Made by a program: the position numbers and the translations under genes. Of a stretch of DNA of 31,399 nucleotides, positions 21,403 to 30,868 are shown piece by piece (positions within the stretch are counted from its first letter, which is position 1; every line of letters begins with the position of its first letter). The stretch comes from Chloroflexota bacterium (GTDB lineage: Bacteria; Chloroflexota; Anaerolineae; Anaerolineales; Anaerolineaceae). Under the pieces are notes generated by a model. The model searched no databases. It worked only from the letters and a program-made list of their open reading frames with translations, and had not been told where the DNA came from. The stretch is taken from contig JAEXTI010000127.1 of assembly GCA_023406965.1 (NCBI GenBank), positions 1 through 31,399 of the forward strand, written 5' to 3'.

Positions 21403-22677
21403 CTACGGTGTTTCTCCCAGGGCCTGGAGTTCGGCCACGCTGGGATCAAAGTTGGGATGCGCTTGCAGGCTCTCGCGCAGATCTCTCACCGCCCCTTCCC
21501 GGTCGCCCATTGCCAGCAAGGCCCGCGCCCGCCACAAGAAGTTCTCCTCCAGGTAAGGTTCGGGGGTCGAACCAATCGTCTGCGTGGTCAGGTTGATCAC
21601 ATCCTGGTACCGTCCCGACCAGTAATAAGCAAAATAGGGGCCGGTCTGGTAGAAAGTGATCCGGTATGGGCGGCTTTTTGCTTCCAAAGAAGGATACACC
21701 TGGTAGGCCTGGTCATAAGCTCCGGCAGCCCCGTAGTAATCTTGCAGCAGCACCAGGCTGGATCCACGGTTGAACCAGGCGAAGAACAGGTCCACGCCCT
21801 GAGTGCGGTAAATTTCCTCAGCGGCAAGCTGCGCCGCCATCTCGTTGGCCTTTTGCTCGTCGGCATAATCGCCCAGCAGGTCCATCAAGCGGCCTTCCTC
21901 CGCAAACGGGTAGACCACCAGGAAGACGTAATTGAACGAGCGCCAGCCGGTTAGAAACTTATCGTAGGTCTCGCGATAGTCGGCGTGATAAAACGAATCT
22001 TGAATGACCCATTCTTGCGTCGCGTCGTCATACCCGGTGATGGTCTGGTAATGCCCCATCCACGAATCCACCCCGGTCAGGTCGCGCATGATGGCGCCTT
22101 TCTCCACCAGCACCGGGTACCCCGCCGCCAGCAGTTCCTTGAGCAGTTCCGGCCTCCCGCCGTTACGGACAATGACACCCAACTGGGTCTTTTGCCGGAC
22201 GTAATCAGCCAGCTCATACGGCATGACGTTCTTGTCTTGGGGATGCGGCTTGACAAACGTGCCGATATCCTCGCGCGTGCCCTCCCAACCCCAGAAGTTC
22301 AGCTCCATCGCCAGGTTGGCCGGGGCGCAGTAGTTGAAAGCCCCGTGCTGGTCCACATACTTCACCCCCAGCAGCTCCACTCGTCCGGGCAGCGGAGTTG
22401 GGCTGGGCGCCGTGGTCGGCGTGGGCGCCTCGGGCGGCAGCGTGGCGGTGACGGTAGGTTCAAGCGTGGCGGTGGCAGTGGGCAGCAAGGGCGCCTCAAT
22501 CGGCGCTTGGGGCACAAAAACTTCCGCTTCCGGCGGGTTAATCATCTGCCGCACGCGCAATTGAATCAAATAAGCCCGGTACACTACACGCTCGCGGATG
22601 GCCGGGATGAGCATTGCAATCCCCCCCAGGGCCAGAAGTACGACCCAGGCCAGGAGAAATCTTTTTAACCATTTCAT
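21403..22677 (-). CDS. membrane-anchored C39-like cysteine peptidase with C-terminal TPR repeats
   Basis: 424 residues. A membrane anchor at about 7-28 and a Pro/Thr-rich linker (about 50-95) place the rest outside the membrane. The peptidase domain of the C39_2 type spans about 105-260: active-site Cys117 in FNYCAPANLAMEL, His209 in WMGHYQTITGYD, and a following QDSF that supplies the third residue. A C-terminal part (about 300-424) has helical TPR-like repeats, e.g. YDQAYQVYPSLEA and RARALLAMGDREGAVRDL. Members cleave peptides or remodel wall material; the substrate is unknown. A frame extending to 22917 would overlap pxpA and encodes Arg-rich sequence of no known family, so the ATG at 22677 is used. 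It probably opens the operon that contains sbcD. Confidence 0.88.
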   Translation of the reverse strand: MKWLKRFLLAWVVLLALGGIAMLIPAIRERVVYRAYLIQLRVRQMINPPEAEVFVPQAPIEAPLLPTATATLEPTVTATLPPEAPTPTTAPSPTPLPGRVELLGVKYVDQHGAFNYCAPANLAMELNFWGWEGTREDIGTFVKPHPQDKNVMPYELADYVRQKTQLGVIVRNGGRPELLKELLAAGYPVLVEKGAIMRDLTGVDSWMGHYQTITGYDDATQEWVIQDSFYHADYRETYDKFLTGWRSFNYVFLVVYPFAEEGRLMDLLGDYADEQKANEMAAQLAAEEIYRTQGVDLFFAWFNRGSSLVLLQDYYGAAGAYDQAYQVYPSLEAKSRPYRITFYQTGPYFAYYWSGRYQDVINLTTQTIGSTPEPYLEENFLWRARALLAMGDREGAVRDLRESLQAHPNFDPSVAELQALGETP

Positions 22678-22702
22678 ACTCAGGATTATATCAAAGAAGC
22701 GC

Positions 22703-23434
22703 TCACCGACCAGCCGCCAGCTTTCGCACCTCGATCCCGCTTTCCTCCAGCGCCGCGCGCACCGCTGCCGCCCGCGCTCCGGCATGGGGGCTGTCACCGT
22801 GGATGCACAACGTCTCCACGCCCCGCCCGGTTTGAGCCAGCCGCACCGCCTGCGCGCATATCTCCTCCAACGAATCCAGCACGGCCCCGGGCTCCTTCCG
22901 CGAGCGCAGACTCCCATCCGGTTGATAAGCCCGGTCGGGGAAACCCTCCCCCGCTGTGCGCAGCCCGGCCTCCTCGCCCGCCTCCGTCAGCATCGACCCC
23001 GCCAGCCCCACCAGGATCAACCCGCCCCCATACCGCCGCACCGCCCGCGCAATAGCCGCGGCGGTTGGACGGTCTTTGGCTGCCTGGTTGTAAAGCGTGC
23101 CATGCGGCTTGACGTGAGCCAGCTCCACGCCCTCGGCCCGGGCAATGCCCGCCAGCGCGCCAATCTGATACAGCACAAACGCCTCCACCTCCGCGGGCGA
23201 AAGATCCATCACCCGGCGGCCAAAACCCTGCAAATCCGGGTAGCCGGGATGCGCTCCCACCGCCACGCCCAACTCTGCCGCCAGCCTCACCGTCTGCTGC
23301 ATCACCAGCGGGTCCCCGGCGTGCAGCCCGCAAGCCACGTTGGCCGAGGTTACATAGCGCAGCGCCTCAACGTCGTCACCCACGGTATAACGACCGAACG
23401 ACTCGCCCAAATCGCAATTCAAATCAATGACCAT
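22703..23434 (-). CDS. pxpA: 5-oxoprolinase subunit A (LamB/YcsF family)
   Basis: 243 residues. With PxpB and PxpC it hydrolyses 5-oxoproline (pyroglutamate) to glutamate using ATP. Family motifs are all seen: VIDLNCDLGESFG at the start, TSANVACGLHAGDP, GVAVGAHPGYPDLQGFGRR, AHVKPHGTLYNQA and CIHGDSPHA near the end. A longer frame starts at 23506, but the ATG at 23432-23434 begins the conserved LNCDLGE region and has GGAGGGCGAGG upstream. It is transcribed away from the Lrp/AsnC gene; the 160 bases between hold promoters for both. Its partners pxpB and pxpC lie 6 kb away on the other strand. Confidence 0.95.
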   Translation of the reverse strand: MVIDLNCDLGESFGRYTVGDDVEALRYVTSANVACGLHAGDPLVMQQTVRLAAELGVAVGAHPGYPDLQGFGRRVMDLSPAEVEAFVLYQIGALAGIARAEGVELAHVKPHGTLYNQAAKDRPTAAAIARAVRRYGGGLILVGLAGSMLTEAGEEAGLRTAGEGFPDRAYQPDGSLRSRKEPGAVLDSLEEICAQAVRLAQTGRGVETLCIHGDSPHAGARAAAVRAALEESGIEVRKLAAGR

Positions 23435-23468
23435 CCTCGCCCTCCGCAGTTTCAATCCTTCAATATAA

Positions 23469-23474
23469 ATTATA
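23469..23474 (-). promoter_or_regulatory. possible -10 box for pxpA
   Basis: TATAAT on the minus strand, about 35 bases before the pxpA start. The -35 region is poor. Confidence 0.35.
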
Positions 23475-23512
23475 GCAAATTTCCAAAACACGCGAAAAAT
23501 GATCATTCGGAC

Positions 23513-23541
23513 TTGAAATTTGTCTACTTCGGAAATATAAT
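23513..23541 (+). promoter_or_regulatory. sigma-70 type promoter for the Lrp/AsnC gene
   Basis: TTGAAA (23513-23518) and TATAAT (23536-23541) with a 17-base gap, 54 bases before the start codon. This is the clearest promoter in the window. An ATTTCC at 23479-23484 and a GGAAAT at 23531-23536 form an inverted pair across it, a possible regulator site. Confidence 0.75.
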
Positions 23542-23595
23542 AAGGATTAATCGTGCCTTGTTAGACATGTTGATGATTTACGGAGGATATCCGCA

Positions 23596-24072
23596 ATGAC
23601 CATTAAACTTGACTCGATCGACAAGCAAATCGTCGACCTCCTCACCGAGGACGGCCGCATGTCCTGCGCTGACATAGCCCGGCAGATTGGCAACATCACC
23701 GAGCGGTCCGTGCGCTACCGATTGCAGCGATTGCTGGATGAGCACATCATCAATGTTTCAGCCGTGGTCGATCCCCGTGCGGTTGGGTTTCCGGTGGTCG
23801 CCGACGTTTTCATCGAGGTAGAGCCCGGCCAAATCCACGATCTGGCCGATAAACTGGCCGGTTACGATATCGTCACCTATGTCGCCTGCGCCACCGGCGA
23901 GCGCGACATCAGCATCCAGGTGGTTGCGCGCAACAACCAGGAATTGTACAACTTTGTGACCGAAGTGCTGGGCCGCCTGCCTGGCGTGCGCCGCACTTCC
24001 ACCTCTCTCGTCCCGCTCATCGTCAAAGATGACTCCCGCTGGCGCATCCCACAGTCGGTCATCAAAGATTAG
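23596..24072 (+). CDS. Lrp/AsnC family transcription regulator
   Basis: 158 residues. The N-terminal helix-turn-helix (about 5-55) has LDSIDKQIVDLLTEDGRMSC, ADIARQIGN and VRYRLQRLLDEHII, the standard AsnC form. The C-terminal RAM domain (about 65-145) has VVADVFIEVEPG and VACATGERDISIQVV, which binds amino acids and forms octamers. Such regulators control amino-acid genes, often their neighbours and their own promoter. It is divergent from pxpA and lies 50 bases ahead of the aminotransferase-like gene, so control of one or both is likely. GGAGG lies ten bases before the ATG. Confidence 0.94.
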   Translation: MTIKLDSIDKQIVDLLTEDGRMSCADIARQIGNITERSVRYRLQRLLDEHIINVSAVVDPRAVGFPVVADVFIEVEPGQIHDLADKLAGYDIVTYVACATGERDISIQVVARNNQELYNFVTEVLGRLPGVRRTSTSLVPLIVKDDSRWRIPQSVIKD

Positions 24073-24122
24073 CATCGCCCGCAAAGAACCGCCGTTAATC
24101 GGCACACAGAGGCGCACATCGA

Positions 24123-25412
24123 ATGATGGATAACCCAATCGATTCCTACGAAGACGTCCTGCCCCATCTATCTCCGGTGTGGACACGCTACACCGATCTC
24201 ATCATCTCCCGGGCCGAAGGCTGCTGCCTGTACGATCAGGACGGCAAGGAATACCTGGATTTTACCAGCGGCTTTGGCGTCACCAACACAGGTCATTGCC
24301 ATCCCCGCGTGGTTGAGGCCGTCCGCGAGCAAGCCGGGCTGCTGCTCCACGGTCAGCCCACCCTCGTCTATCACAAACCCATGCTCGAGCTGGTGCGTGC
24401 CCTCCTGCCCATCATGCCCTCCGGCATCGACGGCTTCTTCTTTAGCAACTCCGGCGCCGAAGCCATAGAAGGCGCGGTCAAGCTGGCCCGCCACGCCACC
24501 GGGCGCACCAACATCATCGCCTTTCAGGGTGGCTTTCACGGTCGCACCGCCGGCGCATTGGCCATGACCTCGACAAAAACCGTGTACCGCGCCGGCTACC
24601 AGCCCCTGCCCGCGGGCGTCTTCATCGCCCCCTACCCTTACGCCTACCGCTACGGTTGGAGCGAAGAGGAGACCAGCCAGTGGTGCCTGGACGAGCTTAA
24701 CTACCTGCTCCTCACCCAAACTGCTCCCCACGAAACCGCCGCCATTCTCATTGAGCCGGTGCTGGGCGAAGGCGGTTATGTCGTCCCGCCGCCGCCCTTC
24801 CTCAAGGGCTTGCGCGATCTGTGCAGCAAGTACGGCATCTTGTTGATCCTGGATGAGGCTCAGTCCGGTTTCGGCCGCACAGGCCGTTGGTTTGCCCTCG
24901 AGCATTTCAACGTGCAGCCCGATATCATCGTCGCCAGTGGGGGCATGGGCTCCGGCCTGCCCATCTCCGGCGTTTTCAGCCGCCTCGAGCTGATGCAGCA
25001 ATGGACCCCCGGTTCGCACGGCGGCACGTTTGGCGGCAACGCCGTTTCTGCCGCGGCCGCTGTGGCGACCATCCAGACCATTCAAGAAGACAAGTTGCTG
25101 GAAAACGCCCAGGAACGTGGCGCGCAATTACTGAGCGGCCTGCGCGCCCTGCAATTGCAGTACCCCGTCATCGGCGACATCCGCGGGCTGGGCCTTATGG
25201 TGGGTGTCGAGTTCCGCACCCCCGAACGCAAACCCGATAAAGCCGCCGCCAAGGCCGTTGTCCACGCCTGCCTCGAGCAAGGCCTGATCTTGCTCACCTG
25301 CGGCCCCTATGACAATGTCATCCGCTGGATTCCCCCGCTGGTGGTCACCGCCGAGCAGATCGACCTGGCTCTGGCCGTCTTCGCCGAAGCCCTCAAAGAA
25401 ACCGCTGCTTAA
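24123..25412 (+). CDS. class III aminotransferase-like protein lacking the PLP lysine
   Basis: 429 residues, the usual length of class III (GabT/ornithine-type) aminotransferases. Expected motifs are present: CLYDQDGKEYLDFTSGFGV, HPRVVEAV, NSGAEAIEGAVKLAR (phosphate binding), GGFHGRT, IEPVLGEGGY, LDEAQSGFGRTG with Asp244 to the pyridine nitrogen, and GGTFGGN with Thr302. The catalytic segment, normally AKG-x-ASGLPLS, reads VASGGMGSGLPIS, with Gly273 (codon GGG, 24939-24941) where the Schiff-base lysine should be. A Lys-to-Gly change from AAG needs two base changes, so a single sequencing error does not explain it. It therefore may not transaminate as its relatives do. Two ATGs (24123, 24126) could start it; no strong ribosome-binding site. 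It follows the Lrp/AsnC gene by 50 bases and ends at a strong terminator. Confidence 0.9.
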   Translation: MMDNPIDSYEDVLPHLSPVWTRYTDLIISRAEGCCLYDQDGKEYLDFTSGFGVTNTGHCHPRVVEAVREQAGLLLHGQPTLVYHKPMLELVRALLPIMPSGIDGFFFSNSGAEAIEGAVKLARHATGRTNIIAFQGGFHGRTAGALAMTSTKTVYRAGYQPLPAGVFIAPYPYAYRYGWSEEETSQWCLDELNYLLLTQTAPHETAAILIEPVLGEGGYVVPPPPFLKGLRDLCSKYGILLILDEAQSGFGRTGRWFALEHFNVQPDIIVASGGMGSGLPISGVFSRLELMQQWTPGSHGGTFGGNAVSAAAAVATIQTIQEDKLLENAQERGAQLLSGLRALQLQYPVIGDIRGLGLMVGVEFRTPERKPDKAAAKAVVHACLEQGLILLTCGPYDNVIRWIPPLVVTAEQIDLALAVFAEALKETAA

Positions 25413-25431
25413 AATCTGGCTTATCCTCCCC

Positions 25432-25468
25432 CACCCTAAGGGTCTTCTTCGACCCTTAGGGTGTTTTT
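25432..25468 (+). terminator. rho-independent terminator
   Basis: A 13-base perfect stem CACCCTAAGGGTC / GACCCTTAGGGTG around a six-base loop, followed by TTTTT. It lies 19 bases after the aminotransferase-like stop and ends that transcript. Confidence 0.95.
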
Positions 25469-25540
25469 GTCCATCTACCAGCAGGACGAACCTCCTACCC
25501 CCCGCGCCTCTGCCGTGTTTCATTTCTCTGTAATAATTTT

Positions 25541-25582
25541 CCTCCCTCTGCGTTCCTCTGCGTCCTCCGCGCCTCCGCGGTG
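25541..25582. repeat. short phased repeat of CTCTGCG type
   Basis: Four tandem degenerate copies of a nine- to ten-base unit: CCTCTGCGTT, CCTCTGCGTC, CTCCGCGC and CTCCGCGGTG. I know this pattern as a dispersed intergenic repeat in many bacteria. The spacer around it (25469-25608) has no gene. Confidence 0.55.
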
Positions 25583-25608
25583 CATCCTTCTTCCCGCCAT
25601 ATCTCCGG

Positions 25609-25614
25609 TATAAT
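25609..25614 (+). promoter_or_regulatory. possible -10 box for the lar genes
   Basis: TATAAT, 33 bases before the larB start and after a strong terminator, so a promoter is needed here. The -35 region is poor. Confidence 0.4.
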
Positions 25615-25647
25615 TCAACCATCCCGTCCCAATCCGGAGGTACTTTT

Positions 25648-26400
25648 TTGGAAGAACAAGCCCTCAAGACTCTTCTCGAGCAGGTCCGCGCCGGCGAAGT
25701 CGACACCGACGCCGCCCTGGCTCGCTTGCGCACTTTACCATTTGAAAGCGTGGGCAACTTTGCCCACCTCGACCAGCACCGCGCCCTGCGTTGCGGCTTC
25801 CCCGAAGTGGTCTTTGGCCAGGGCAAAACCCCCGACCAGGTCGTGCAAATCTCCAAGCGCCTGGCCGAGCGCAACGACCGTGTCCTCGTCACCCGCGTCA
25901 CCGCTGAGATGTACGCCCAGATCGGCGACCAGCTACCCGAGATGACCTACCACCCCCTCCCGCGTGTGCTCATCCTCGACCGCGCCGCCGACCAACCCCG
26001 CAAGCCCGGCATCCTGGTAGCCAGCGGCGGCACTGCCGACATGCCCGTGGCCGAGGAAGCCGCCCTGACCGCCGAACTGATGGGCAACCAGGTCGAGCGC
26101 GCTTATGATGTCGGCGTAGCCGGTCTGCACCGCCTGCTCAACCGCCTCGAGCAGCTTCAGGCCGCCCGCGTGGTGGTGGCCGTGGCCGGCATGGAAGGCG
26201 CCCTGCCCAGCGTGGTAGGCGGGCTGGTCTCGGCCCCGGTCATCGCCGTGCCCACCAGCGTGGGCTACGGGGCCAGCTTCCAGGGTCTGGCTGCCCTGCT
26301 CACCATGCTAAACAGTTGCGCCACCGGCATCTCAGTGGTCAACATCGACAACGGCTTCGGCGCCGGCTACCTCGCCGCCCTCATCAACCGCCTCGGTTAA
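25648..26400 (+). CDS. larB: nickel-pincer cofactor biosynthesis protein LarB
   Basis: 250 residues. LarB carboxylates nicotinic acid adenine dinucleotide at C5 of the pyridinium ring and releases AMP, the first step towards the nickel-pincer nucleotide cofactor. Family motifs: FAHLDQHRALRCGFPEVVFGQGKTPDQV, VASGGTADMPVAEEAALTAELMG, VAGMEGALPSVVGGLVSAPVIAVPTSVGYGAS, and the C-terminal MLNSCATGISVVNIDNGFGAG with Cys224, the residue that forms the substrate adduct in studied LarB. It resembles PurE in its C-terminal half. The start is TTG at 25648, with GGAGG eight bases upstream; no ATG fits. First gene of the lar set. Confidence 0.95.
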   Translation: MEEQALKTLLEQVRAGEVDTDAALARLRTLPFESVGNFAHLDQHRALRCGFPEVVFGQGKTPDQVVQISKRLAERNDRVLVTRVTAEMYAQIGDQLPEMTYHPLPRVLILDRAADQPRKPGILVASGGTADMPVAEEAALTAELMGNQVERAYDVGVAGLHRLLNRLEQLQAARVVVAVAGMEGALPSVVGGLVSAPVIAVPTSVGYGASFQGLAALLTMLNSCATGISVVNIDNGFGAGYLAALINRLG

Positions 26401-26413
26401 AAAGTCATTTTCT

Positions 26414-26506
26414 CCACGAATTACACGAATTGCACGAATTTGACCAGAAGCAGAAGAATGGTCGTAGCAACTCTTCCCCAATCCGTGTCATTCGTGAAAT
26501 TCGTGG
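26414..26506. repeat. inverted repeat of CACGAATT units
   Basis: The left arm carries CCACGAATTACACGAAT and a third CACGAATT; the right arm carries ATTCGTGAAATTCGTGG (26490-26506). The units are spaced by nine to ten bases. It fills the 130-base space between larB and larE. I know it as a dispersed intergenic repeat found in various phyla. It can fold as a hairpin in the transcript. Confidence 0.75.
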
Positions 26507-26532
26507 ATAGATCTTTCTGAGGTAATATACTT

Positions 26533-27348
26533 ATGGGTATCTCACCAGAACTAAACCAAAAATATCAATCCCTGCTCGACCGCCTGCGCGGTCTGGGCTC
26601 GGCCCTGGTGGCCTTCTCCGGCGGCGTCGACAGCGGCTTGCTGGCTGCCGTGGCCCACCAGGCCCTCGGCGAGCGCATGCTGGCTGTCACAGTGCGTTCG
26701 GTGGTCGAAACCGCCGCCGGAACCGAAGCCGCCGCCCGCCTGGCCCAACAGGTCGGCTTCGCCCACCGCATCATCGACTTCGATGATCTGGCCAACCCCA
26801 ACTTCGTCTCCAACCCGCCCGACCGCTGCTACCATTGCAAGCTGGAGCGCCTAGGCGCGCTGGTCAAGCTGGCCCAGGCCGAAGGCTACGCTTGCGTTCT
26901 GGAAGGTTCCAACGCCGACGACAGCGGTGACTACCGCCCCGGCAAGCGCGCCGTGGCCGAGTTGCGCGTGCTCAGCCCGCTGGCCGAGCTGGGCTTCAGC
27001 AAAGCCGAGGTGCGCGAGCTTTCCCGTCACCTGGGCCTGGAGTTGTGGAACCGTCCCAGCGCCCCATGCCTGGCCACCCGCTTCCCCTACGGCACGCCCG
27101 TCAGCGTGGAAGGGCTGGGCCAGATTGCCCGCGGCGAGGAATTCCTGCAATCCCGCGGCTACGCCCCCGTGCGCGTGCGCCATTACGGCTCCCTGGCCCG
27201 CCTGGAAGTAGCCCCCGAGCAAATCGCCCGCCTGGCCGCCGAACGAGAAGAAGTTGCAGCGTTTTTCCAGACGCTTGGATTCACCCACGTGGCAGTCGAC
27301 CTGGTCGGCTACCGCTCGGGAAGTTTAAACGAGGTGTTGACCCAATGA
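26533..27348 (+). CDS. larE: ATP-dependent sacrificial sulfur transferase LarE
   Basis: 271 residues. LarE adenylates the two carboxylates made by LarB and replaces them with thiocarboxylates, giving up sulfur from a cysteine. PP-loop SGGVDSG (29-35) binds ATP. Cys179 in SAPCLATRFPYG aligns with the sulfur-donating cysteine of the Lactiplantibacillus enzyme. A separate CYHC pair (Cys99, Cys102) is present. Some LarE proteins carry three clustered cysteines and an iron-sulfur cluster that recycles sulfur; whether this is one cannot be told by eye. GAGG lies ten bases upstream of the ATG. Its stop overlaps the larC start (ATGA). Confidence 0.94.
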   Translation: MGISPELNQKYQSLLDRLRGLGSALVAFSGGVDSGLLAAVAHQALGERMLAVTVRSVVETAAGTEAAARLAQQVGFAHRIIDFDDLANPNFVSNPPDRCYHCKLERLGALVKLAQAEGYACVLEGSNADDSGDYRPGKRAVAELRVLSPLAELGFSKAEVRELSRHLGLELWNRPSAPCLATRFPYGTPVSVEGLGQIARGEEFLQSRGYAPVRVRHYGSLARLEVAPEQIARLAAEREEVAAFFQTLGFTHVAVDLVGYRSGSLNEVLTQ

Positions 27349-28511
27349 AGCTGGCATTCTGTGATTGTTTTTCCGGAATAAGCGGAGACATGTTCCTGGC
27401 GGCCATGATTGACGCCGGGCTGTCGCCGCAGTTGTTGAACGAAAGCCTGGCCCAACTGAAGCTCGAAGAGCACGTGGAAGTGCAAGTCGAGGAAGTGCAT
27501 AAAGGCGCCCTGCGCGCCGCCCAGATCACCGTGGTGGCCCCGCACAGCCACCACCACCGCCACCTCTCCGACATCCAGGCCATCATCGGCGACAGCCCCC
27601 TGCCCGACCCGGTCAAGACCAACGCCCTCAAGACCTTCCAGGTGGTGGCCGAAGCCGAAGCCCGCGTCCACGGCTCGCCCATCGACCACGTTCACTTCCA
27701 CGAGGTCGGCGCCCTCGATTCCATCGCCGACGTGGTCGGCGCGGCGCTGGGCATGCACGAGCTGGGCATCGAACGCCTGTATGCCTCCGCCCTGCCCTAC
27801 GGCTCGGGCCAGGTGAACAGCGATCACGGCCCTCTGCCCTTGCCCGCCCCCGCCACCCTCGAGATTTTGGCCCGCGGGCACGCCCCCCTGGTGGCCTCTC
27901 CGGCCCAATCCGAGTTGGTCACTCCCACCGGGGCGGCCATCCTGGCTGCCCATGCCACCTTCGAGCGCTCCGACATGGTACTCACCCGCGTGGGCGTGGG
28001 CGCCGGGCGCAAAGACTTGCCCTGGCCCAACGTGCTGCGCCTGATGCTGGGCGAAAGCCCCGCTGCTGTCAACCAGCCGGTGGTGCTCATGGAAACCAAC
28101 ATCGACGACATGAACCCCGAGTTCTTCGGCAGCGTCATGGCCCGCCTGTTCGCCGCCGGAGCGCTGGACGTTTTCATGACCCCCATTTACATGAAAAAGA
28201 ACCGCCCTGCCACCCTGCTGGGCGTGGTGGCCCGCCGCAGCGATGAAGCCGAACTGGCTAAAATCATTCTCAGCGAAACCAGCACACTGGGCCTGCGCGT
28301 CCAGCCGGTCTATCGCTACGAAGCCCAGCGCGAGCTGCGCAGCGTGGAAACGCCCTTCGGCAAGCTGACCGTCAAGGTCAAACTGCTGGACGGGCGCGCG
28401 GTGCAGGCCCAACCCGAGTATGACGAGTGCCAGGCCGCCGCCCAGGCCCACAACGTCCCGGTGGGAGAAGTCTACCTGGCAGCCCTCCTGGCCGGGAAAG
28501 ATGTGCTATAG
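27345..28511 (+). CDS. larC: nickel-inserting protein LarC (single uninterrupted gene)
   Basis: 388 residues. LarC is a cyclometallase that inserts nickel into the pincer nucleotide, using CTP. N-terminal half: FCDCFSGISGDMFLAAMIDAG, the His-rich HSHHHRHL at about 65, DHVHFHEVGALDSIADVVG and SELVTPTGAAIL. C-terminal half: METNIDDMNPEFFGSVMARLF and KLTVKVKLLDGRAVQAQPEYDEC. In L. plantarum larC is split in two parts joined by a programmed frameshift; here it is one frame. A larger frame upstream (to 27045) lies inside larE and is not used; the ATG at 27345 overlaps the larE stop and has GAGGTG upstream. Confidence 0.95.
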   Translation: MKLAFCDCFSGISGDMFLAAMIDAGLSPQLLNESLAQLKLEEHVEVQVEEVHKGALRAAQITVVAPHSHHHRHLSDIQAIIGDSPLPDPVKTNALKTFQVVAEAEARVHGSPIDHVHFHEVGALDSIADVVGAALGMHELGIERLYASALPYGSGQVNSDHGPLPLPAPATLEILARGHAPLVASPAQSELVTPTGAAILAAHATFERSDMVLTRVGVGAGRKDLPWPNVLRLMLGESPAAVNQPVVLMETNIDDMNPEFFGSVMARLFAAGALDVFMTPIYMKKNRPATLLGVVARRSDEAELAKIILSETSTLGLRVQPVYRYEAQRELRSVETPFGKLTVKVKLLDGRAVQAQPEYDECQAAAQAHNVPVGEVYLAALLAGKDVL

Positions 28512-28608
28512 TTAATTCGGTACTTCACAGAGGTCAAAAGAAGTTCTTTCTTTTCTTGCTGAACAGTTTACGTTAATGGGATTGACCATCATCACAGGGA
28601 GAACAGGG

Positions 28609-29259
28609 ATGTCCGAATCAATCGATTTCGCCAATAACTATAATGATCTGAGCACAGAGCAAGGTTTCCAATTCGAGTTCATCTGTAACCGCTGCGGGAA
28701 CGGCAAGCGCACGGCCTTCAAGCCCTTCACCTTGGGCAAGGTCTCTGGCGTCATGGATACCGCCAGCGGGTTGTTGGGCGGCATCTTCAGTTCAGCCGCC
28801 AACGTGGCCGGGCAGGTCAGCTCGGCTGCCCATGAGCGCGCCCACGATGCGGCTTTTACCGAGGCCACCATCCAAATGCGCCCCAACTACGTTCAGTGCC
28901 CGCGCTGCTCCAGTTGGGTCTGCCGCGACCAGTGCTGGAACAACAAAAAAGGCCTGTGCAAGAGCTGCGCGCCCGACCTGGGCGTCGAGATGGCCGCCGC
29001 GCAGGCATCCAAGTCGGTTGAAGAGGTGTGGGCTAACGCCGTGATGGCCGAAGAAGACAAGAAGCTGGGCGAAGAGAATTGGCGGGGCGGCGTCCGCGCC
29101 ACCTGCCCTTCTTGCGGCAAGGCTCTGGCGGCCAATGTCAAATTCTGCCCCGAATGCGGCGGCAAGATCCAGCAGGTGGTGCATTGCACCGAGTGCGGAG
29201 CCAAACTGCCCCCCGACGCCAAGTTCTGCGGCGAGTGCGGCCACAAAGTCGCCGCCTAG
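28609..29259 (+). CDS. cysteine-rich zinc-ribbon protein, function unknown
   Basis: 216 residues with 16 cysteines in pairs: Cys26/29; Cys97/100, 105/109 and 117/120; Cys166/169 and 180/183; Cys193/196 and 207/210. The last eight make a double zinc ribbon (CPSCGKALAANVKFCPEC, then CTECGAKLPPDAKFCGEC), a common module. The middle cluster, CPRCSSWVCRDQC, is a zinc-binding module of another type. A Gly/Ala-rich stretch (45-85) with VMDTASGLLGGIFSSAANV could touch a membrane or another protein. Nothing shows the substrate. The ATG at 28609 has AGGGAGA upstream; a longer frame from 28576 lacks one. It lies 97 bases after larC and three bases before pxpB. Confidence 0.85.
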   Translation: MSESIDFANNYNDLSTEQGFQFEFICNRCGNGKRTAFKPFTLGKVSGVMDTASGLLGGIFSSAANVAGQVSSAAHERAHDAAFTEATIQMRPNYVQCPRCSSWVCRDQCWNNKKGLCKSCAPDLGVEMAAAQASKSVEEVWANAVMAEEDKKLGEENWRGGVRATCPSCGKALAANVKFCPECGGKIQQVVHCTECGAKLPPDAKFCGECGHKVAA

Positions 29260-29262
29260 CGC

Positions 29263-29949
29263 GTGGACTTTCCCCGCTTTCAGCCCGCCGGCGAAGCGGG
29301 CCTGCTGGTCACTCTGGGCGAGGAAATCAACCCGGCCCTCAACCGTCGGGTGCATTCCCTCGCCCAGGCGCTGGCTGGTTCCAATCTAGGCGGCCTGGGT
29401 GAGGCTGTTCCCGGCTATTCCACCCTGCTCATCCACTACGATCCACTAACCTGGGCCTACTCGGCCTTGTGCGAGCGGATCGCTGTTTTCCTGGAAGCCG
29501 GCAGCGATTTTCGGCAAGACTGGCAGCCGCGCCGTGTAGAAATTCCAGTGGTCTACGGTGGGCAATTCGGCCCTGATCTGAATGCCGTGGCCCAGGCCCA
29601 CAACCTGACTCCTGCCGAAGTCATTGCCCGCCACACGGCCCGCGATTACCCCGTCTACCTGATCGGCTTCATGCCCGGTTTCCCCTACCTGGGCGGCCTG
29701 GACCCCGCCCTGGCTACCCCGCGCCTGGAAACGCCCCGCAGCCACGTCCCGGCCGGGTCGGTGGGCATTGCCGGAGCCCAAACGGGCATCTACCCGCTCG
29801 AATCGCCTGGCGGCTGGCGAATTATTGGCCGCACACCCCTGCACCTGGTGGATTGGCAGCGCGAACCACCCTTCCTCCTCACGCCGGGAGACGTGGTCCG
29901 CTTCGTGCCCCTTGAGTCCGCGGAGTTTGACCATGCTGCGAGTTCTTGA
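29263..29949 (+). CDS. pxpB: 5-oxoprolinase subunit B (KipI family)
   Basis: 228 residues. With PxpC it forms the ATP-using part of 5-oxoprolinase; in Bacillus the relative KipI inhibits the sporulation kinase KinA. Key motifs: GEAGLLVTLGEEI, VEIPVVYGG, LIGFMPGFPYLGGLDP, PRSHVPAGSVGIAG, QTGIYPLESPGGWRIIGRTPL and LLTPGDVVRFVP. The start is GTG at 29263, three bases after the zinc-ribbon stop and without its own strong ribosome-binding site, so translation is coupled. The 3' end overlaps pxpC by 17 bases. Confidence 0.94.
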   Translation: MDFPRFQPAGEAGLLVTLGEEINPALNRRVHSLAQALAGSNLGGLGEAVPGYSTLLIHYDPLTWAYSALCERIAVFLEAGSDFRQDWQPRRVEIPVVYGGQFGPDLNAVAQAHNLTPAEVIARHTARDYPVYLIGFMPGFPYLGGLDPALATPRLETPRSHVPAGSVGIAGAQTGIYPLESPGGWRIIGRTPLHLVDWQREPPFLLTPGDVVRFVPLESAEFDHAASS

Positions 29950-30868
29950 GTCGGCCTTCGCTTGTATACAGGATGCCGGGCGCCCCGGATGGGAGCGCTT
30001 TGGCGTGCCCCCCGGCGGGCCGATGGATTGGGTCGCCCTCCGCGCCGCCAACGATCTGGTGGGCAACCCGCCCGAAGCCGCCGCTTTGGAGCTGGCCCTG
30101 GGCGCGCTGGCCCTGGAAAGCACCACCGACACGCTCATTGCATTGACCGGAGCAGGCTTCCAACTTTCCGTCGATGGCATCTCCATGCCCTCCTGGTCAG
30201 CGGTACGGGTGCGAGCGGGGCAGTATATCCAGGCCGCCCCCCTGCCAACCGCTCCCGGTATGTGGGCTTATCTCAGTATCATCGGCGGCATCGACACGCC
30301 GCCGGTGCTGGGTTCGCGCAGCACCTACCTGCGCGGCCAACTCGGCGGGTTGGAAGGCCGCCTTTTGCAACCCGGCGACCTCCTGCCAGTGCGGCACGTC
30401 ACGCCGGACTGGTCGCTGGCGGGCCGGCGCGTGCCGCCCCAGGCCCGCCCAGCCTACGGCGCACAAATCACTGCCCGGGTGGTGCTTGGCCCGCAGGAAG
30501 CGTGGTTCACCCCCGAAGCCGTGCTGCGCTTCTTGAGCGAAGCCTACACGCTCAGCCGCCTCTCAGACCGCATGGGCAGCCGCCTCGAAGGTCCGCGCCT
30601 CGAACGCGCCCGCGGCGGTGATTTGCTCTCCGAGGGCATGGTCACCGGCGCCATCCAGGTTCCGCCCGACGGGCAGCCCATCGTCATGATGCTAGACCGC
30701 CCCGCAACCGGCGGCTACCCAAAAATTGCAACCATCATCCGTGCCGACCTGCCCCTGGTGGCCCAGTTGCGCCCCGGTGAAGGCTGCTTGTGCTTCCAGG
30801 CTGTCACGATAGAAGAAGCGCGCCTGGCAATCCACCAGACGCGCATCCTCATCGAGAATATCTTGTAA
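29933..30868 (+). CDS. pxpC: 5-oxoprolinase subunit C (KipA family, biotin-dependent-carboxylase-like)
   Basis: 311 residues. Third subunit of 5-oxoprolinase. Motifs: IQDAGRPGWERFGVPPGGPMDWVALRAANDLVGN, then LALTGAGF-type strands, YLSIIGGIDTPPVLGSRSTYLRGQLGG, RLSDRMGSRLEGPRL, SEGMVTGAIQVPPDGQPIVMM and DRPATGGYPKIATII. All are standard for this family. A longer frame begins at 29768, inside pxpB, but the ATG at 29933 starts the conserved region and has GGAG eight bases upstream. It closes the plus-strand set. Confidence 0.95.
   Translation: MLRVLESAFACIQDAGRPGWERFGVPPGGPMDWVALRAANDLVGNPPEAAALELALGALALESTTDTLIALTGAGFQLSVDGISMPSWSAVRVRAGQYIQAAPLPTAPGMWAYLSIIGGIDTPPVLGSRSTYLRGQLGGLEGRLLQPGDLLPVRHVTPDWSLAGRRVPPQARPAYGAQITARVVLGPQEAWFTPEAVLRFLSEAYTLSRLSDRMGSRLEGPRLERARGGDLLSEGMVTGAIQVPPDGQPIVMMLDRPATGGYPKIATIIRADLPLVAQLRPGEGCLCFQAVTIEEARLAIHQTRILIENIL

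Follow-up and report, generated by a model that had tools for sequence, protein, structure and literature searches.

What role can be left to a class III aminotransferase that has lost the lysine of its active site? This question is raised by a gene in a 31,399-nucleotide stretch of DNA from a Chloroflexota bacterium of the Anaerolineaceae (assembly GCA_023406965.1, contig JAEXTI010000127.1; the whole stretch is called the window here). The gene encodes a protein with the fold of the 4-aminobutyrate (GABA) transaminase GabT, and glycine stands where the lysine should form a Schiff base with pyridoxal 5'-phosphate (PLP):

24123..25412, + strand: lysine-less class III aminotransferase (GabT fold), 429 amino acids, identified by Pfam match and GabT alignment
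24939..24941, + strand: codon 273, GGG (Gly), at the column of the Schiff-base lysine, equivalent to Escherichia coli GabT Lys268

By both fold and homology, the protein belongs to the class III aminotransferases: PF00202 (Aminotran_3) covers residues 22-424 with 431 bits against a cut-off of 30.5 (4.3e-129). It scores below the curated cut-off of TIGR00700, the NCBIfam equivalog for 4-aminobutyrate transaminase (386 versus 507 bits), and likewise below that of the top-scoring NCBIfam model, NF005993 (547 versus 574 bits). Around the site, residue n of the window protein corresponds to n-5 in E. coli GabT in a phmmer alignment, and Gly273 pairs there with the lysine of the GabT AKSIAGG segment. 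The initial annotation had named Gly273, within 24921-24965, in place of the PLP lysine, and the aligned GGG codon bears this out. According to a review, this lysine is absolutely conserved in every aminotransferase with catalytic activity (PMC9309667). The window gene encodes an aminotransferase-fold protein without the catalytic lysine, that is, a pseudo-aminotransferase. The source records name its lysine-bearing homologues 4-aminobutyrate aminotransferase, which would be misleading as a name for the lysine-less members.

The loss is clade-wide and of single origin. Gly273 is shared by six related sequences: the window protein, P0002-P0005 (86-93% identical to it; P0005 has records from 5 contigs) and L001, a locus of the Anaerolineaceae metagenome-assembled genome (MAG) Zod_Metabat.414 (genome G001). 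When the best 120 of 7999 scored candidates were inspected, a depth at which independent lysine losses elsewhere are possible, 4 (P0002-P0005) had Gly and 116 had Lys. A further search, with a profile built from all six glycine-type sequences, yielded 17 new proteins among the matches listed, all with Lys and no additional glycine-type member, so that Lys is found in 133 of 137 homologous proteins among these matches. In a set of 46 GTDB loci, the site was covered at >=50% identity in 39, of which 38 have Lys and one, L001, has Gly; the remaining seven are distant relatives with Lys (L036, L037, L039-L041) or lack an orthologue match covering the site (L042, L045). The contig scan of genomes used a single protein as query and reaches close relatives only. 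Of 101 genomes, 32 gave a match to the protein at E <= 1e-150, and 30 of these matches became loci (the G001 copy and 29 with Lys), while two (G083, G086) were left out of the residue count. Six matches at E <= 1e-205 in 147 genomes of the same family comprise the G001 copy (91%) and five with Lys (69-74% identity). In a tree of 70 rows, built by a quick method with SH-aLRT support only and a distant outgroup, the six glycine-type sequences form one clade (support 100) nested among the lysine-type sequences, with the lysine-type protein P0006 (81% identical) as its sister (support 95).

The gene has been conserved since the loss. Of 428 codons compared between the window and L001 copies, 138 differ (100 synonymously), yet both copies carry the identical codons AGT GGG GGC at the site. 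The ratio of nonsynonymous to synonymous substitution rates (dN/dS) between them is 0.106 (NG86) or 0.079 (YN00); three neighbouring genes compared gave 0.03-0.05, and 37 pairs of lysine-type orthologues gave 30 usable NG86 values (0.036-0.108) and 17 YN00 values (0.016-0.065). These values place the lysine-less gene under strong purifying selection. Random decay, which the initial annotation had considered unlikely, is opposed by a glycine that is clade-wide and arose once, and by a dN/dS of about 0.1. These evolutionary facts, namely the lysine loss, its single origin and the conserved gene, are firm. A single-origin loss in a well-sampled orthologous group offers a clean case of how an enzyme turns non-catalytic, and the purifying selection, together with a likely ancestral operon that can be read in relatives, adds to its value.

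Which parts of the active site changed along with the lysine, and which were kept? At eight columns, the 116 lysine-type homologues show no variation, whereas all six glycine-type members have a different residue. Four of them, and two sites that bear on PLP binding, are as follows:

24273..24275, + strand: codon 51, Phe; Ile in 116/116 lysine-type homologues; position of GabT Ile50
24360..24362, + strand: codon 80, Thr; Asn in 116/116 lysine-type homologues
24531..24533, + strand: codon 137, Gly; Ser in 116/116 lysine-type homologues; directly ahead of Phe138 of the FHGRT motif
24936..24938, + strand: codon 272, Ser in the window, with Ser or Gly across the clade; 116/116 lysine-type homologues have Ala
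24852..24854, + strand: codon 244, Asp, the family's aspartate to the pyridine nitrogen; retained in 6/6
25026..25028, + strand: codon 302, Thr, equivalent to GabT Thr297, which contacts the phosphate from the other subunit; kept in 5/6, Val in P0005

The other four columns are 146 (Met to Leu), 151 (Ser to Thr), 309 (Ala to Ser) and 273 itself (Lys to Gly). In all, 130 columns are >=99% conserved in the lysine-type homologues, and 11 of these are altered in at least one glycine-type member. The window protein differs from GabT and PuuE in having no Schiff-base lysine and in carrying Phe at the Ile50 position; solved GabT variants are mutated at the equivalents of columns 51 (1szs, I50Q) and 246 (1szu, V241A), and column 246 (GabT Val241) is Ala, Val, Thr or Ile within the clade.

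Much of the remaining site is retained. We take the pyridine-nitrogen aspartate of GabT to be residue 239, which is consistent with its alignment to Asp244 of the window protein. The nearness of residues to PLP was judged from the GabT alignment and from PMC9309667, which gives Gly111, the next residue, Arg141, Gln242 and Arg398 as GabT contacts to PLP and the substrate carboxylate. These positions, as well as the aspartate, Phe138 and His139, are kept in all six members, and ten PLP- and carboxylate-site residues are identical throughout the clade. Among the residues that a competent enzyme needs, the aspartate to the pyridine nitrogen, Arg141 and Gly111 are therefore present in 6/6, and the Schiff-base lysine is replaced by Gly273 in 6/6. 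The earlier view that the other PLP motifs are intact stands for the window protein, in which SGAEA, FHGRT, Asp244 and Thr302 are all present, but fails at Thr302 in P0005.

The lysine-type relatives offer a view of the setting in which the ancestral enzyme may have worked. Lysine-type orthologues are often part of an operon-like run of genes, and Lrp-headed runs of polyamine and GABA genes occur in Anaerolineae at L086 (1813-11655), L085 (6550-15090) and L010 (309-12786). The order in L086 is an Lrp regulator, a putrescine-aminotransferase-like gene (NF008570, 588 bits; cut-off 612), a sodium/solute symporter, a carboxynorspermidine-synthase-like gene (NF043000, 196 bits; cut-off 800), an amino acid permease, the orthologue and an aldehyde ferredoxin oxidoreductase; L085 is much like it, except that no putrescine aminotransferase was detected in the run, and in L010 an ABC transporter takes the place of the symporter. 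The carboxynorspermidine-synthase-like enzyme of these runs is of the saccharopine-dehydrogenase type. Judging from the family names, such a run would carry out polyamine catabolism through GABA to succinate semialdehyde. A census covered 53 orthologue loci besides L001 (51 with Lys, two not covering the site), 37 of which have >=5.3 kb upstream. In the 10 kb ahead of the orthologue and on its strand, these 37 include 21 with a carboxynorspermidine-synthase-like gene (>=60% identity), 13 with a putrescine aminotransferase and 7 with an Lrp at >=50% identity; an oxidoreductase lies within 5 kb on either side in 21. The carboxynorspermidine-synthase-like gene, the marker of the operon, is present in all four of L085-L088, which are 70-74% identical to the window (the probe was derived from L086). 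A carboxynorspermidine-synthase-like probe from G004 matched in G034 and G056 and found no match in G001, a negative that is provisional elsewhere in that genome. The other three class III aminotransferases of G001 score best as PRK05769-, PRK06062- and LysJ/ArgD-like, and none scores best as a putrescine aminotransferase. From these relatives, we infer that the ancestor had the operon genes and that they were lost afterwards.

At both glycine-type loci whose surroundings can be read, the window and L001, an Lrp gene directly adjoins the aminotransferase gene with no operon genes between; in L001, 53 bp separate the end of the Lrp gene from the lysine-less gene. The Lrp gene of the window is:

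23596..24072, + strand: Lrp/AsnC-family regulator, ending 50 bp ahead of the aminotransferase start; 97% identical to that of L001

Based on these findings, we tentatively favor, at somewhat less than even odds, the idea that a former GABA transaminase has been kept as a non-catalytic, PLP- and amine-binding partner of Lrp. On this reading, the Schiff-base lysine of a GABA or omega-amino-acid transaminase from a polyamine/GABA operon disappeared in a single lineage, where the lysine-less protein would have been retained, still binding PLP non-covalently. An amine or amino acid resembling GABA could then be taken via Arg141 and Arg401 as an external aldimine, which would be a dead end because the lysine that drives transamination and release is missing. 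In its bound or closed state, the protein may in turn modulate the co-encoded Lrp/AsnC regulator. Lysine mutants of aminotransferases generally retain PLP and accumulate external aldimines, and such a dead-end PLP-amine complex would be expected here because Asp244, Arg141 and Arg401 are kept. The PLP-binding, non-transaminating role that had been suggested for the window protein would likewise fit the retained PLP and carboxylate residues.

This scheme recalls GabR, a MocR-family regulator for which the PLP-GABA external aldimine acts as the transcriptional signal (PMC6917764). The likeness lies in the proposed logic only, a PLP external aldimine with a GABA-type amine serving as a signal without turnover, which here would be divided over two polypeptides. 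GabR itself, as described there, is a single polypeptide in which a winged helix-turn-helix and an aspartate-aminotransferase-type domain are joined, and it retains its lysine (Lys312). The window protein has no such composite chain: its 429 residues match Aminotran_3 and Aminotran_1_2 only, and the helix-turn-helix matches are confined to the separate Lrp open reading frame (ORF). A more specific proposal, which we regard as doubtful, is that loss of the lysine makes a GabT-type enzyme trap the PLP-substrate aldimine and thereby become the amine sensor of the very Lrp/AsnC regulator that formerly controlled its operon. If true, this would be a two-protein counterpart of GabR that arose by losing catalysis instead of by domain fusion. 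In either form, the lysine-less protein is a candidate PLP-dependent sensor working with an Lrp regulator. Among the matches listed by one open-access library, no lysine-less class III aminotransferase was recognizable by title and abstract start.

Several observations weigh against a PLP-binding partner of Lrp. Both the PLP binding and the Lrp contact are deduced from sequence. Thr302, a contact to the PLP phosphate, is Val in P0005, which is a second loss in the PLP site of the most divergent glycine-type protein. Adjacency of a regulator gene and an enzyme gene is common and is no proof of co-function; that of Lrp is read from the neighborhoods of two of the six members, with the neighborhood of the sister P0006 outside the comparison. 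Among the 37 lysine-type loci, 16 are without the marker gene of the operon and 30 without an Lrp at >=50% identity. Constraint is somewhat relaxed relative to the lysine-bearing relatives, since dN/dS lies at the top of the lysine-type range by NG86 and over it by YN00, in which the glycine-type pair (0.079) tops all 17 measurable lysine-type pairs. Pocket conservation within the clade, tried as proof of ligand binding, gave no signal, because 4 of 27 selected pocket sites are variable versus 84 of 429 sites overall (Fisher p 0.62).

Could the protein instead serve a lysine-bearing paralogue? The active sites of aminotransferases of this fold type are built at the dimer interface, and a lysine-less subunit could lend its interface loops to, and regulate, a class III partner, as SPT1 does for SPT2. 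We consider this unlikely. As a precedent, the serine palmitoyltransferase subunit SPT1 is likewise a fold-type I PLP-family protein that has lost the lysine and been maintained, and it pairs with SPT2 (PMC6148460). The retained fold and most motifs agree with such a role, and G001 has three more class III aminotransferases (43, 37 and 35% identity), each with Lys at the column. None of the three is on the contig of the gene, however, and their best groups are PRK05769, PRK06062 and LysJ/ArgD; Thr302, which would be given in trans to the PLP phosphate of the partner, is the residue replaced by Val in P0005. SPT1 also belongs to a different family (AOS) and acts as part of a heterodimer whose other subunit has the lysine, whereas no such partner is known here.

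Rather improbable, in our judgment, is an enzyme that carries out a reaction of PLP or pyridoxamine 5'-phosphate (PMP) without the lysine, another residue, the substrate or water acting as acid-base. It would be in keeping with the retention of the PLP, pyridine-nitrogen and carboxylate residues while 51, 80, 137 and 272 changed with the lysine. There are also aminotransferase relatives, the 3-dehydratases ColD, E1 and SpnQ, that are active with His for Lys, the His serving as catalytic base and PMP being used (PMC8987622). The clade has Gly and not His at this column in 6/6, and no substitute base specific to the clade was seen. The residues gained at the eight columns include no Lys, His, Cys or Tyr, and 272 is evenly split between Ser and Gly (three members each), so that the earlier suggestion of another residue working as base is not supported. 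All six members have His203, Lys236 and Tyr396, but so does lysine-type P0006, and Tyr83, likewise found in all six, is also found in 19 of 116 lysine-type homologues. A replacement lysine was sought as well; nine lysines are invariant in the clade and none is clade-specific, the rare Lys236 (11/116 lysine-type) being the one just mentioned in P0006. The absolute conservation of the lysine in active aminotransferases, as the review puts it (PMC9309667), is a further argument against lysine-independent catalysis.

We would give little weight to the idea that PLP binding has been lost and that selection maintains the fold for another surface function, in a moonlighting or structural role. The change of Thr302 to Val in P0005 and a pocket conserved no more than the remainder would agree with it, but the ten PLP- and carboxylate-site residues identical in 6/6 argue against it. 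Very unlikely, and rejected here, is a relic that is becoming a pseudogene after loss of its pathway. No operon genes adjoin the lysine-less gene, and its dN/dS is at or over the upper end of the lysine-type pairs; against this stand a dN/dS of about 0.1 (synonymous differences make up 100 of the 138), full-length proteins in 6/6 sequences, and changes at invariant columns that are mostly shared by the clade and not scattered. A sequencing or assembly error at codon 273, which sits within a run of five G, has practically no chance of being the explanation, because six sequences (the window, P0002-P0005 and the MAG locus L001) share the Gly together with changes in the adjoining codons, and Lys (AAA/AAG) to GGG requires at least two base changes, the point on which an error had already been called unlikely.

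The lysine-less gene lies between the Lrp gene and the lar genes, as the initial annotation had it, although a strong terminator-like hairpin divides it from larB. Signals that may delimit the transcription unit are:

23513..23541, + strand: sigma-70-like promoter match (11/12) ahead of Lrp; 3 such matches in 23400-25700 versus 0.9 expected
25432..25463, + strand: terminator-like hairpin of 13 pairs with a T tail in the aminotransferase/larB gap; longest of 6 in 23400-25700, 2.2 expected

Downstream of the hairpin follow larB, larE and larC, a zinc-ribbon protein and pxpB/pxpC. The lar genes (25648-28511) are those of nickel-pincer cofactor synthesis, and no LarA match was found among the ten ORFs scanned in 21403-30868, the rest of the window being outside that scan. 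The lar neighborhood looks incidental, because the hairpin intervenes and the gene of the lysine-type relatives goes with polyamine genes. In G001, the aminotransferase and larB are at the ends of two contigs, matching up to window position 25459 and from 25455, respectively. Both contig ends (L055, the low end of C87, and L130, the high end of C122) share a short sequence, in opposite orientation at the two ends, and this suggests that a mobile element is inserted between the two genes in this MAG. The aminotransferase-larB order is therefore probably the same in G001, with the insertion between; a functional link to lar was considered and set aside, as nothing beyond this gene order points to co-function.

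Of additional note, the 5-oxoprolinase subunit genes pxpA (22703-23506) and pxpB/pxpC (29263-30868) flank the region about 6 kb apart. Both are missing at the corresponding places of the otherwise colinear G001 contigs (other G001 contigs were not searched), and a link of the aminotransferase to them was rejected on this ground. For pxpA and pxpB/pxpC themselves, the pattern points to their having been gained or lost together at sites that lie apart.
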